The notes beneath the pieces were generated by a model. The model had not been told where the DNA came from and ran no database searches. It saw only the letters and a program-made list of their open reading frames with translations. DNA of 64,000 nucleotides, from the NCBI RefSeq assembly GCF_001375555.1, contig NZ_CTDZ01000009.1, forward strand, positions 1,667,758-1,731,757. The letters run 5' to 3'. The DNA is from Numidum massiliense (GTDB lineage: Bacteria > Bacillota > Bacilli > Thermoactinomycetales > Novibacillaceae). Below, piece by piece: positions 43,271-47,927 of this stretch (its first letter is position 1; the number at the start of each line of letters is the position of its first letter). Position numbers and translations under genes: made by a program.

Positions 43271-43792
43271 TCACCTGTTCTCGTTTGCGAGTCGCGCAAT
43301 CGTCTCATCCAACCAGTCGCGGTCCGCTTTAAAGAGCGTGATGCGATGACTTACCGTTAACGCGACCCCCATACCGAAGCTGTGCCGCGGTGCCCGCTCA
43401 TATTTTTCGATTAGCTCTGTCAAGTAATCGCGCCGCTGCGTCAAATAGTGAATCACTTCTTCGCGCGGCAAGTGGTCGCAAAAAAGTAGCCCGATGTCGC
43501 CTGAAGGCGTCGTCGCTTCGACGTGAGCCAAACCGTCGCGCAACAGCTCAAAAAACGCCTTTTTCCCCTTTTCCGTAATTGAATAAACGTGTCGCTGTAG
43601 CCGGTTGTCGCCTTTTTCGACGGTCACGTCGACGTGCCCCGACTTGTGTAGTCGTTTCAACAACGCATATGCCGTCGCCTTCTTCATGCCGGACACGCGG
43701 CCGAGGTTTTTTTCAATAAAATCGTTGATTTGATAGCCGTGCTGGCTTTGATTCATTAATAAACCTAATATTAGCAATACGCGTTCGTCCAT
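43271..43792 (-). CDS. PadR-family transcriptional regulator
   Basis: A 173-residue PadR regulator. The N-terminal winged helix shows LLILGLLMNQSQHGYQINDFIEK, KKATAYALLKRLHKSGHVDV and RHVYSITEKGKKAFFELL; the C-terminal half is helical (dimerisation and ligand pocket). PadR proteins typically repress a neighbouring transporter gene and respond to small toxic compounds. It is divergent from the MFS exporter, and two similar palindromes lie between them, so it very likely controls that gene and itself. Confidence 0.9.
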   Translation of the reverse strand: MDERVLLILGLLMNQSQHGYQINDFIEKNLGRVSGMKKATAYALLKRLHKSGHVDVTVEKGDNRLQRHVYSITEKGKKAFFELLRDGLAHVEATTPSGDIGLLFCDHLPREEVIHYLTQRRDYLTELIEKYERAPRHSFGMGVALTVSHRITLFKADRDWLDETIARLANENR

Positions 43793-43887
43793 TTACTTAC
43801 CCCTTCAGTCGTCAATAATGTTGGCAATCGCGATGAATCGCCTAGCTCTGTTGGAAATAATAAAAAGAGGTTTCCTAATAGTCGACA

Positions 43888-43905
43888 ATAGTCATCCTTG
43901 ACTAT
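43888..43905. promoter_or_regulatory. operator candidate 1 between padR and the MFS gene
   Basis: ATAGTCA-TCCT-TGACTAT: seven-base perfect arms with a four-base spacer. Confidence 0.55.
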
Positions 43906-43940
43906 CGGAAAAAGCTGTTGCTAAAATAATGACAGTGCAG

Positions 43941-43956
43941 TAGTCACATATGACTA
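43941..43956. promoter_or_regulatory. operator candidate 2 between padR and the MFS gene
   Basis: TAGTCA-CATA-TGACTA: same arms and spacer length as the site at 43888-43905. The centres are 52 bases apart, about five DNA turns. Confidence 0.55.
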
Positions 43957-44041
43957 TGCACGACACTATTTATTATATATGACATTTCGCACTGACAGAC
44001 AAGCGTATAGGAAAATCCGCTGGGAAAGGTTCTGGGAAACG

Positions 44042-45625
44042 ATGAATAAAGATGTCAAATGGCCGTTACTTATTTTCGCGATTGGCGTGTTTATGGCCGC
44101 GTTGGACAATGGAATTATGACGTCTGCATTGACGACGTTGACCCACGCTTTCGGCGTAACGCCGACGTGGGGGACGTGGACGATGACACTATATACGCTC
44201 GGAATGGCGATCAGCGTGCCCATTGTCGGCAAGTTCTCTGACCGCTACGGCCGCAAACGGTTGTTTCTCATTGAAATTGGTCTGTTCGGATTTGGCTCGC
44301 TCCTCGTGGCACTCAGTCCGAACTTCGTCTCCTTTCTCGCTGCTCGCTTTATTCAATCGCTCGGCGGGGGCGGTATTTTTATTATCGCTAGTTCTTACGT
44401 GTTAAGTACGTTTCCGAAGGAGCGGCAAGGGCGTGCACTCGGGATGATTGGCGGGATGCACGGGATCGCCTCGGTGCTCGGGCCGAATATCGGTGCGCTT
44501 ATATTGAGTCTTACCGGCAGCTGGCATTGGCTATTCCTCATTAATTTGCCGATTGCCGCCATTTTGTTCGCTTTGGGGACGAAGCATTTGCAAGAAGGGC
44601 GGGAACAAGTGGCGACGCGAACCGACTGGATTGGCATCGTCATCTTGACGGGGGCGATTTTTTCCTTTATGTACGGTGTGACGACGTTAGACGGCGGCCA
44701 CGTCAGCAACAGTTTACTCGCCCCTTCGTCCCTCGCGTGGCTCGGCTCCGGGGTACTGCTGTTCGTCGCCCTGTGGCGCTACGACAAGCGGGCAGCGCGG
44801 CGCGCGATCGACCCGATTTTACCGACGGATATGCTGCGCGGTACCGCTTTTCGCTTGACGCTTCTACTGGGACTGTTCTCCGGCGCCATTCTCGGGGCGG
44901 TCATCTTTATTCCGGGGTACGTCGAACAGTTTTTGCACGTCGATGCAGCGATGTCTGGATTTTGGTTTACGCCACTTGCCCTGGCCGCCGGTGTCGGTGC
45001 AGCCGGTGGCGGTCACATCATCGACTGGAAAGGCCCGATCGCCTCACTGACAGCAGCCGCTTCTTCTGCCGTGATCGGCTTTGCCCTGTTCCCGCTCTGG
45101 GTGGAAGCACCGTGGCAAATGGTCGTCGCCAGCTGTTTTGTCGGGCTCGGCTTCGGGGCGATGCTCGGGGCGCCGCTTAACGTGCTCGCCACGGAGCGAA
45201 CGGAACGGGATAAAGGGATTGCGCTGGCGACGCTATCGTTGGCGCGACAAATCGGGATGGCCATCGCCCCGACGTTTTACGCCGGCTTCCTCGCCCGCTC
45301 CTTTGTCGGCATTGGTACGACTGTGCGCGAACAACTGTCAGCTAATGGTCGCCGGCCAGTTCCCCCGCAACTGCTGGAACAGTTAAGCGGCGCGAACGAT
45401 TTTCAATCGCTGACGCAGTTGTTAGAAAAAATCCCCGACCCGCACGTTAAAGCAGTGCTCGAAGGCGCGATTGACACCGCGGTACGACAAGGGTTTAACG
45501 GCTTGTTTTACGCCGCGCTCACAATTAGCATCCTCGCCTTTGTAACGATCGGTATTCTCGCCCGCGTGCGAAAAAAGCAGGGTGGACAGTTGGCGGAACG
45601 GACAACGACGCCGCGTGTCACATGA
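44042..45625 (+). CDS. MFS drug/metabolite exporter, DHA2 (14-helix) type
   Basis: Proton-driven exporter with many hydrophobic segments. The start MNKDVKWPLLIFAIGVFMAALDNG places the D1-like motif in helix 1. GKFSDRYGRKRLFL is motif A, and GGMHGIASVLGPNIGALIL is the antiporter motif C region. The ATG at 44042 is preferred over an upstream in-frame ATG because the family start is there. Length of about 527 residues fits the DHA2 group. It is probably repressed by the divergent PadR. Confidence 0.9.
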   Translation: MNKDVKWPLLIFAIGVFMAALDNGIMTSALTTLTHAFGVTPTWGTWTMTLYTLGMAISVPIVGKFSDRYGRKRLFLIEIGLFGFGSLLVALSPNFVSFLAARFIQSLGGGGIFIIASSYVLSTFPKERQGRALGMIGGMHGIASVLGPNIGALILSLTGSWHWLFLINLPIAAILFALGTKHLQEGREQVATRTDWIGIVILTGAIFSFMYGVTTLDGGHVSNSLLAPSSLAWLGSGVLLFVALWRYDKRAARRAIDPILPTDMLRGTAFRLTLLLGLFSGAILGAVIFIPGYVEQFLHVDAAMSGFWFTPLALAAGVGAAGGGHIIDWKGPIASLTAAASSAVIGFALFPLWVEAPWQMVVASCFVGLGFGAMLGAPLNVLATERTERDKGIALATLSLARQIGMAIAPTFYAGFLARSFVGIGTTVREQLSANGRRPVPPQLLEQLSGANDFQSLTQLLEKIPDPHVKAVLEGAIDTAVRQGFNGLFYAALTISILAFVTIGILARVRKKQGGQLAERTTTPRVT

Positions 45626-45741: not shown

Positions 45742-47736
45742 TTATTCCTCTGCAAACAGCTTTTCCCCGCGGCTCAGTCGCCAGGCGATGCTCGCCGTAT
45801 GGGGCAAATCGCGCGCTGTCGGCGCGTGGGCAGCAATGTAACGCGTCGCGGCGACGATGAGCGTGCACTGGGCATGTTCGGCGAGGGCGGACTGTTCGGA
45901 CGCCCACCGATCGTGTTCGACGACAGCCGCTTCGAACATTTGAAAGGTGTGAAACGCAGCGTCTTCGCGCAGTAGCGCATGCCCGAGGACATTGAATAGC
46001 GCTGCTTTGTCTCCGCCCTCGACTAAGTAGTGCGCGACCCATTCAGCCGCCTCGCTCACCTGTTGCTGCTTGTCTAACAACTCGAGCAACCGTTCCGGCG
46101 CCGGAACGGTCGCGCGGGTGGATGTCGTCGACGCAGTTGAGGTGGACGCCGAAATAGGTGATGCTGGCGCTTTAGACGTAGCGAGCGAGGTAGACGAGGG
46201 AGCGGGAGAAGCAGGTGTAGCTGATGCGGCGGACTCAGTTGACGCAGCGGACGTTTCGACATACTTGCTCGTAAACGCTTGCGGCAGGCGCGCTGGAGGC
46301 ACGTTCAAGAATCGGTCTAAGTAAACGGTCATCGCCGCGTGAAAGACGCCGCGCACTGTCTCTAGTGATACCGAGCGGAGCAAACTTTCGTGGACGGCGT
46401 GCGCGTGCGTAAACGTGTGCAACACCGTATCCCAATCGTTAAAATCGTTCTGTACATTGAAGCGGGCAATCCGCTCCGCTGCAGCTAGCGCCACCAATTG
46501 CGCGAGGCGAACCGGCGACATCCCTCCCTCAAGCGCCGTTAATAGCTCTTCGATCGTCTTTTCCGGATCGTCGCTAAGGATCTGGTCCACGAGCGCTTCC
46601 TCTGCCTCCATATCCATTGCGTGAGCAGATGTAAGCCTCATCGGAGTGTCGATAGCAGCCGCATCCGTAACAGTCGTACCTGTAGCGGTCGCCCCCGTAC
46701 CTGTGGTAGTCGCACCCGTAACAGCCGTCAAGTCGGCGACGTCCGGCAAACGGGCAAAAGCTCGCTCCAGCGGTTGTACTAAGTCGACTGGCGCCTGCCA
46801 ATTGTGCATCTCCTCGCTGCGCGACGCACTGCTGAGCTCGGGCACGAGCGACGTCAATACGCGCGCGCGGCGGTCGCTGTCGACGTGCGCAAGTATTTCA
46901 AACGCTTTATTGTGAAAATCTAACGCGTGCCCGCCATCCATGTAAAAATGGTCTGTCACGGCAGCCATCATCATATCCGCTAACTGTTCCGTCGTCGCAC
47001 CGCAGCGAATCGCTGTTAGCAATACTCGTTCGGCACCATCCGTGTCACGCACTTCGATCAAACGGCGATACCACCTAGCGAGCCGTTCGAGTGAGATGTC
47101 GTCGTTCGGCAGCGGTTCTAGCAAAAAGCGCGTCCCCCCGACACTTTCGCGCGCCACGTGCACGAGCCCGTGAAACAACGCGAGAATGCGCCCCATTTTA
47201 TCTAATTTCGGCAGAACATTCACCATTGCCGTTAAGATCGTCAACCCCGAGCGCCAGCCATGTTTGCGGTACGTCGTCCCGTAGTCGATGCCGATCTGTG
47301 CGATCGCCTCTGGCGGCTCGCCCGCTTCGATCAACCCGACGACCGCTTTCGCGATGACGAGACTAAGGTTTTGTTCCAGCCCTTCGCGCAAACGCTGCCG
47401 ATAGCGGGAGACGGCGGCCCCTTGCCGCGGTGTCGGATCGACCCATACGTCGCCGCCCTGCACCGTCACGGCATACGTGGCGACATCGTCCGCCCACGGG
47501 TCGAGCGTCCCGCCGCTGGCGATGTCAAAGCGCGCGTGGTGCCAATGACACGTCAACAACCCGTCGCACAAGCTACCCATATGTAGTGGAAAGCCCATGT
47601 GCGGGCAGCGGTTGTTTACAGCGTAAACCGTACCGTCTGCGTAGAAGACGGCAATCGTCTGTTTCTCCCCTGTGACCACTTTCGGCCCATCTTGCTTAAG
47701 CTCCTCCACTGTCCCTGCATAAAGTCGTTTTGTCAC
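45742..47736 (-). CDS. Rieske [2Fe-2S] domain fused to a large histidine-rich helical region
   Basis: 664 residues. Residues 1-100 form a Rieske ferredoxin-like domain with cluster ligands Cys44, His46, Cys63 and His66 (NNRCPHMG, TCHWHH). Residues about 110-330 and 370-490 are helical and contain two His-rich blocks (TDHFYMDGGHALDFHNKAFE at about 261-280; DWDTVLHTFTHAHAVHESL at about 434-452). These look like diverged copies of one module and recall questin-oxidase-like proteins. Two low-complexity linkers (335-366 Thr/Gly/Ala; 493-546 Ser/Ala/Thr/Pro) separate the parts. The GTG at 47736 follows AAAGGAGG. I infer an oxidoreductase; no substrate or partner is visible. Confidence 0.75.
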   Translation of the reverse strand: MTKRLYAGTVEELKQDGPKVVTGEKQTIAVFYADGTVYAVNNRCPHMGFPLHMGSLCDGLLTCHWHHARFDIASGGTLDPWADDVATYAVTVQGGDVWVDPTPRQGAAVSRYRQRLREGLEQNLSLVIAKAVVGLIEAGEPPEAIAQIGIDYGTTYRKHGWRSGLTILTAMVNVLPKLDKMGRILALFHGLVHVARESVGGTRFLLEPLPNDDISLERLARWYRRLIEVRDTDGAERVLLTAIRCGATTEQLADMMMAAVTDHFYMDGGHALDFHNKAFEILAHVDSDRRARVLTSLVPELSSASRSEEMHNWQAPVDLVQPLERAFARLPDVADLTAVTGATTTGTGATATGTTVTDAAAIDTPMRLTSAHAMDMEAEEALVDQILSDDPEKTIEELLTALEGGMSPVRLAQLVALAAAERIARFNVQNDFNDWDTVLHTFTHAHAVHESLLRSVSLETVRGVFHAAMTVYLDRFLNVPPARLPQAFTSKYVETSAASTESAASATPASPAPSSTSLATSKAPASPISASTSTASTTSTRATVPAPERLLELLDKQQQVSEAAEWVAHYLVEGGDKAALFNVLGHALLREDAAFHTFQMFEAAVVEHDRWASEQSALAEHAQCTLIVAATRYIAAHAPTARDLPHTASIAWRLSRGEKLFAEE

Positions 47737-47927
47737 ACACAACGCCTCCTTTATCTGAAAAGAATCTCCCTTCACGCTACATTATACAGCAGGTTCCGCA
47801 CACTTACAATACTTTTTATAGTATTAAATATAAAAAGTGATGACATAAACTTGTTCGACGGCACGGATGTACAGAAAACATTACAGCGACATGGACATTC
47901 AGAAAACGCCCCAACAGCATAGACGTA

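Follow-up and report, generated by a model that had tools for sequence, protein, structure and literature searches.

Twin TAGTCA-N4-TGACTA palindromes as putative operators of a PadR-s1 regulator and its divergent MFS exporter gene

Which protein reads two matching palindromes lying between a padR gene and a divergent exporter gene, and why there are two of them, is the question raised by this locus. The window, i.e., the whole 64,000-nucleotide stretch of Numidum massiliense DNA that was analysed, carries padR on the minus strand (43271..43792) and an MFS exporter gene on the plus strand (listed ORF 43979..45625); the 186-bp intergenic gap of this divergent pair (43793-43978) has a GC content of 37%, compared to 52% in the window. 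Two exact copies of TAGTCA-N4-TGACTA are located in the gap, namely TAGTCATCCTTGACTA at 43889..43904 (putative operator A, designated by exact match, retention at orthologs, and promoter geometry) and TAGTCACATATGACTA at 43941..43956 (putative operator B, designated by exact match and its position relative to the exporter -10). Their centres are 52.0 bp apart, corresponding to 4.95 turns at 10.5 bp. The first-pass annotation had reported both the twin sites and their distance of five helical turns correctly, apart from a range starting one base early (43888), and had additionally proposed a different PadR recognition sequence with cooperative or looped binding. Based on the comparisons described below, the palindromes are very probably operators of the adjacent PadR, which would act as an autorepressor of its own gene and as a repressor of the exporter gene. 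Immediately left of operator A, TAGTCGAC (43879-43886) could be an additional half-site, arranged as a direct repeat with the operator (TAGTCG-ACAA-TAGTCA).

The product of padR (173 aa) is a PadR-s1 member by its domains, two signature tyrosines, and predicted fold. A PadR winged-helix domain (PF03551, 52.8 bits, cut-off 27, residues 8-80) is followed by a Vir_act_alpha_C domain (PF10400, 31.5 bits, cut-off 22.4, residues 102-168), and the length together with PF10400 agrees with the s1 class of about 180 aa with a larger helical C-terminal domain, as the size classes are given in the available part of PMC3506622. Tyr20 and Tyr42 were invariant across 24 aligned PadR orthologs and were equated, by like numbering, with Y20 and Y42 of Bacillus subtilis PadR, which are named as signature DNA-contact tyrosines in the accessible text of PMC6457526. 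The AlphaFold2 model (mean pLDDT 84.7) contains two long C-terminal helices, and its first Foldseek match by E-value was B. subtilis PadR on operator DNA (5x11, E 3.3e-6) with a whole-chain TM of just 0.42, which may reflect differently oriented domains in the model. Query-based TM values were 0.67 and 0.70 for Rv0047c (8jxk chains C and D) and 0.68 for Rv1176c (8ioi_A). When the ortholog profile was searched against PDB sequences, 5x11 was the second-best match (E 1.8e-14), and the AphA structure 1yg2 was also matched (E 1e-9).

The divergent gene encodes a DHA2/EmrB-like MFS protein (PF07690, 162.2 bits), for which the best NCBIfam match was TIGR00711 with 155.3 bits, below its cut-off of 230.2. 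Judged from homologous N-termini, the ATG at 44042 is a likelier start than 43979. The pairing of a PadR with an exporter is not restricted to the window, as an MFS gene or an FtsX/MacB-type permease gene accompanies padR at many orthologs. Beyond the exporter gene, a 677-aa ORF on the minus strand (45742-47775) has a Rieske [2Fe-2S] domain at its N-terminus (PF00355, residues 19-100), followed by more than 500 residues without a Pfam match at E <= 0.001.

Within the entire genome (3,755,739 bases), the two sites were the only exact matches to TAGTCA-N4-TGACTA. Allowing up to one mismatch, six sites were retrieved genome-wide compared to four for the pattern read backwards, and at up to three mismatches the window held 16 matches compared to 13.6 expected from shuffles; therefore, just the two exact copies stand out. 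The twin palindromes exceed chance because such sites recur at orthologous padR loci. A scan of the collection yielded 22 PadR relatives at 43-61% identity (best segment), spanning Paenibacillus, Aneurinibacillus, Neobacillus, Alicyclobacillaceae, and other Bacillota as well as Chloroflexia, Thermomicrobiales, and Thermoflexales, the latter three of which we take to belong to Chloroflexota. Three duplicates (L064, L069, L070) were removed from 39 loci, which also included those from the class-genome search described below and L073. The remaining 36 were scored for sites with no more than one mismatch in the 12 arm positions (11/12 or better), located up to 200 bp upstream of padR, whose start was set at the homologous rather than the annotated start. 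Such a site was present at 29 of the 36 loci, in Paenibacillus, Aneurinibacillus, and Chloroflexota among others, with 0.02 loci expected from dinucleotide shuffles; when the window itself and L073, which had entered the set via the site search, were excluded, 27 of 34 loci remained with a site. The 29 loci carry 42 sites in all, with nearly invariant arms, four nearly free central bases, and two A/T-rich flanking bases on each side. Hence, a chance origin of the palindromes was rejected on both the genome-wide exact counts and the ortholog loci, and conservation of the motif upstream of orthologous padR genes, suggested earlier as a check on this locus, was confirmed. Among remote PadR proteins, only 2 of 28 loci had a near-match anywhere in about 3.3 kb. 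The exact twin-site pattern was found in 0 of 11 genomes of the family of G090; the twins seen in such genomes are 11/12 matches, which an exact search misses.

At seven of the 36 loci (L050, L053, L055, L059, L060, L061, L068), no site was detected upstream of padR. In four of these seven genomes, the exact sequence precedes either an exporter-type gene or a different padR (L075, L073, L094, L098), and in the remaining three a genome-wide search found the exact site nowhere. In G263, padR has no upstream site, and twin sites 43 bp apart precede the following gene, which encodes an FtsX/MacB-type permease (L098). A separate observation concerns L052, L053, L055, L060, and L061, where a conserved padR is kept and the padR-proximal box is missing or altered; L052 retains just the exporter-proximal box at 11/12.

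The distribution of the exact site across genomes bears on whether PadR or some other protein is the binder. In 21 genomes with relatives (the genome of L037 being outside this search), 24 exact sites were found compared to one for the reversed pattern, and 21 of the 24 were by coordinates upstream of a padR ortholog. Two of the other three are located before MFS genes (L074, identified by Pfam, and L075, identified by eye). The third (L085, Thermoflexales) precedes a 125-aa membrane-like protein (gene 1541-1915), possibly a new target type, which was counted apart from the MFS targets because its reading frame had no Pfam match. The search was extended to 398 class genomes, an even draw from the class rather than the entire class, of which 16, counting that of the window, had a PadR match at E <= 1e-30. 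Nine of these 16 ortholog-bearing genomes contained an exact site, compared to 26 of the 382 others (one-sided Fisher p = 8e-7); by genus, the comparison was 5/10 vs 20/136 (p = 0.014), and a hand count of the reversed pattern gave 1/16 vs about 80/382. Of the 13 exact sites present in ortholog-bearing genomes, 11 precede padR, MFS, or FtsX/MacB genes; the remaining two, almost identical to each other in mirror orientation, are located at contig ends of G160 (three exact sites in total) and have no recognised gene after them. None of the 30 exact sites in the other genomes was within 200 bp before padR or a recognisable transporter gene (translations inspected by eye); these were located within coding regions, in hairpins resembling terminators, or in front of genes of other kinds. 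Gene kinds were mostly judged by eye from the first residues, with a Pfam scan for some. As G104 and G413 agree in site coordinates, they probably represent the same genome, whose site before an MFS gene then enters both counts.

These data also speak to the alternative that the palindromes are bound by a TetR, MarR, or similar regulator whose gene is located elsewhere, with padR being just one of its targets. The same core does occur before a TetR-like gene in a same-order relative (L122, genome G036), hence regulators of other folds may use it, and the core alone does not prove PadR. Against this, the site co-occurs with padR in both Bacilli and Chloroflexota, no second regulator gene was seen by eye to recur at padR loci, and the site is present upstream of padR genes without a divergent exporter (L039-L041, L044, L045, L047, L057), as expected for autoregulation. 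Control by another regulator is thus considered very unlikely, and the assignment of the palindromes to the adjacent PadR is strongly supported by comparison. In L122, the core TAGTCATATATGACTA (position ~830) is embedded in a longer palindrome directly before the TetR-like gene, which is followed by a flavin-oxidoreductase-like gene, with a divergent antiporter-like gene about 300 bp away (gene kinds by eye).

The position of the sites relative to predicted promoter elements indicates how binding might act. For the exporter, a putative -35 hexamer, TTGACT (43898..43903, plus strand), is located inside the right arm of operator A, and a putative -10 hexamer, TAAAAT (43922..43927, plus strand), follows 18 bp after it. 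For comparison, 23 exporter-side sites were hand-picked. Sixteen were the sites nearest to padR at as many loci (among them L038 with a 9/12 site, as well as L049 and L062, which have no divergent gene); the other seven stood alone or away from padR and were oriented by the gene downstream of them. On the strand of the exporter, TTGACTA forms the end of the padR-proximal site A in 22 of the 23. The palindrome itself dictates five bases of the -35 hexamer, and the one left free, the initial T, was present in 22/23 exporter-side sites vs 4/15 B sites (at least 11/12); it was also present in 6/10 sites from padR loci lacking a divergent exporter. Of the 23 exporter-side sites, 21 were followed at a distance of 17 or 18 bp by a -10 matching in four or more of its six positions. 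The mean match was 4.87, vs 2.70 (sd 0.20) in mononucleotide shuffles. Operator B starts 13 nt after the exporter -10 in the window (5 to 17 bases across loci) and, being just downstream of it, should cover the first transcribed bases, taking the transcription start as predicted from the -10.

In the direction of padR, site A occupies the spacer between -35 and -10 at 18 of 27 loci, a count made without a shuffle control, where the last two bases of the site were required to open the -10 (at least 5/6) and a -35 (at least 4/6) to be situated 16-18 bp upstream; an example from several Paenibacillus is TTGACC...TAGTCA-N4-TGAC-TATACT. This geometry was absent from the other 9 of the 27 loci. For the window, the padR hexamers at site A give a weak promoter (-10 TATTGT, 4/6 matches; -35, 3/6 matches), and 97 bp separate the site from the padR start codon downstream; transcription of padR may thus start from a different promoter. 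Site A alone could consequently cover both promoters at many loci, with its cover of padR being less sure in the window.

The same geometry argues against the possibility that PadR activates the exporter from these sites rather than repressing it. A precedent for activation exists in AphA, described as both activator and repressor in the accessible part of PMC6855506; here, however, site A overlies the exporter -35 and site B would overlie the first transcribed bases, and the exporter hexamers are near consensus with a 17-18 bp spacing, so that this promoter should need no activator. Activation is accordingly regarded as most improbable. Under the favoured reading of repression, one PadR dimer would bind each 16-bp site with one winged helix per TAGTCA half. 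As site A spans the exporter -35 and, at most relatives, the padR -35/-10 spacer, a single dimer bound there could block both genes, and a dimer on site B, past the exporter -10 and over the first transcribed bases, would add a second block on the exporter. Binding of a compound, probably a substrate of the pump, would release PadR from the DNA, upon which both exporter and PadR would be made. What the comparison itself shows is that the site is conserved with the PadR subfamily, that in the genomes concerned it is nearly confined to promoters of padR and exporter-type genes, and how the exporter promoter is arranged around it. PadR would be the binder; repression on binding and induction by a pump substrate are what we infer because the sites overlap promoter elements and PadR-exporter pairs such as LadR/mdrL are known. 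Most likely, the locus represents a real but ordinary efflux-pump switch.

The presence of two sites could alternatively be explained by cooperative or looped binding, i.e., dimers placed on the same helix face five turns apart with the spacing being selected. The spacing in the window (52 bp, 4.95 turns) fits this, as does that of 10 of 15 twins at 51-55 bp, and AphA, itself a PadR-s1 protein, binds adjacent sites cooperatively according to the accessible part of PMC6855506. Spacings were determined for 15 twins, including L038 (one 9/12 site), L049 and L062 (no divergent gene), and L098 (upstream of an ABC permease gene), and amounted to 43, 44, 47, 48, 48, 51, 52 (five), 53 (two), 54, and 55 bp, with a mean resultant length of 0.43. 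Five of the 15 are outside the range of 51-55 bp, at 43, 44, 47, 48, and 48 bp, the last three being about half a turn off; as spacings cross helical phases, phasing as the cause of the twin sites was unsupported. Two sites of at least 11/12 were present at 11/16 loci with a divergent transporter or membrane gene vs 2/13 without (one-sided Fisher p 0.005; table hand-entered from gene orders, with loci being related and not independent), and a single site was found at 11/13 loci without a divergent exporter vs 5/16 with one. L065, whose P-type-ATPase-like gene is over 300 bp distant, and L066, with a monooxygenase-like gene, were classed as having no divergent exporter. Each of seven Paenibacillus relatives without a divergent exporter has a single site. 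The spread of spacings and the split between twin and single sites favour operators placed on promoters over a phased cooperative pair, and the promoter positions account for the spacing. Cooperative or looped binding, as put forward in the first-pass annotation, is therefore judged unlikely, and the PadR operators it had also proposed were retained, given their conservation at orthologs and the exporter-type genes mostly found downstream of the site elsewhere. Twins 52 bp apart without a divergent gene were observed in Aneurinibacillus and another relative (L049, L062); L049 has the exporter-type hexamer TATAAT and L062 a weaker one, perhaps the relic of a lost exporter, and in both genomes an exact site precedes an MFS gene elsewhere (L074, L092).

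Taken more widely, we consider it somewhat probable that this PadR subfamily constitutes a portable exporter-control cassette common to Bacilli and Chloroflexota. Its half-site TGACTA would be built into the -35 of a sigma-70-type promoter (TTGACT), so that a dimer on one box could close a pair of divergent promoters, and the box would have been adapted to three or more transporter types through the positioning of TAGTCANNNTTGACTA at 17-18 bp from a downstream -10. The transporter types found with the box are DHA2-like MFS proteins, shorter MFS proteins of the 12-helix type, and FtsX/MacB-type ABC permeases (helix numbers deduced from family and length). A testable predicted operator is thereby gained for a PadR-s1 subfamily, and the exporter genes of the regulon become searchable by sequence alone in, among others, Paenibacillus, Aneurinibacillus, and Chloroflexota. 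The locus also illustrates an operator doubling as the -35 of the promoter under its control.

How far the box departs from known PadR operators can be judged from its frame. The conserved box reads TAGT-N8-ACTA with inner CA/TG, and the exact ATGT-N8..10-ACAT pattern was found upstream of padR in 0 of 36 orthologs (10 of 36 at a match of at least 7/8, a raw count with no chance control). Accordingly, the earlier proposal of a different recognition sequence holds for the bases and fails for the architecture: the 16-bp two-fold frame is common to ATGT-N8-ACAT and the AphA site, and the box is therefore viewed as a variant PadR box. Narrow full-text searches of freely accessible literature, covering a part of the TGACTA matches, retrieved no PadR operator with TAGTCA or TGACTA; the letters TAGTCA in the accessible portion of the AphA paper (PMC6855506) fall inside other listed sites.

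Among characterised systems, AphA of Vibrio cholerae is likewise a PadR-s1 protein with a 16-bp 6-N4-6 palindrome (ATGCAA-N4-TTGCAT) occurring as single and paired sites, as far as described in the accessible sections of PMC6855506. It differs in the half-site bases, which are TAGTCA in the window, and in being wide-acting, whereas the regulator in the window would be a local exporter switch. The small PadR-s2 proteins cdPadR1 (Clostridioides difficile) and LmrR (Lactococcus) resemble the present case in having a box in the regulator's own promoter and differ in protein class and in their boxes, TACT-N11/12-AGTA and ATGT/ACAT. For cdPadR1, the available text of PMC5050560 gives two boxes upstream of its own gene, one of them over the predicted -35/-10, and LmrR controls an ABC pump according to the available part of PMC3506622. 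B. subtilis PadR (5x11) shares the Tyr20/Tyr42 signature and the 4-N8-4 frame, which is TAGT-N8-ACTA in the window, but differs in its box bases (ATGT-N8-ACAT) and in its targets, those of the window subfamily being exporters. The target of B. subtilis PadR is phenolic acid decarboxylase. The pair LadR/mdrL of Listeria monocytogenes also consists of a PadR-type repressor beside an MFS multidrug pump, with promoters close together; in the accessible text of PMC6624303, mdrL is up about 150-fold without LadR, and one LadR operator controlling both genes is called possible. LadR is likewise assigned to PadR-s1 in the available part of PMC3506622.
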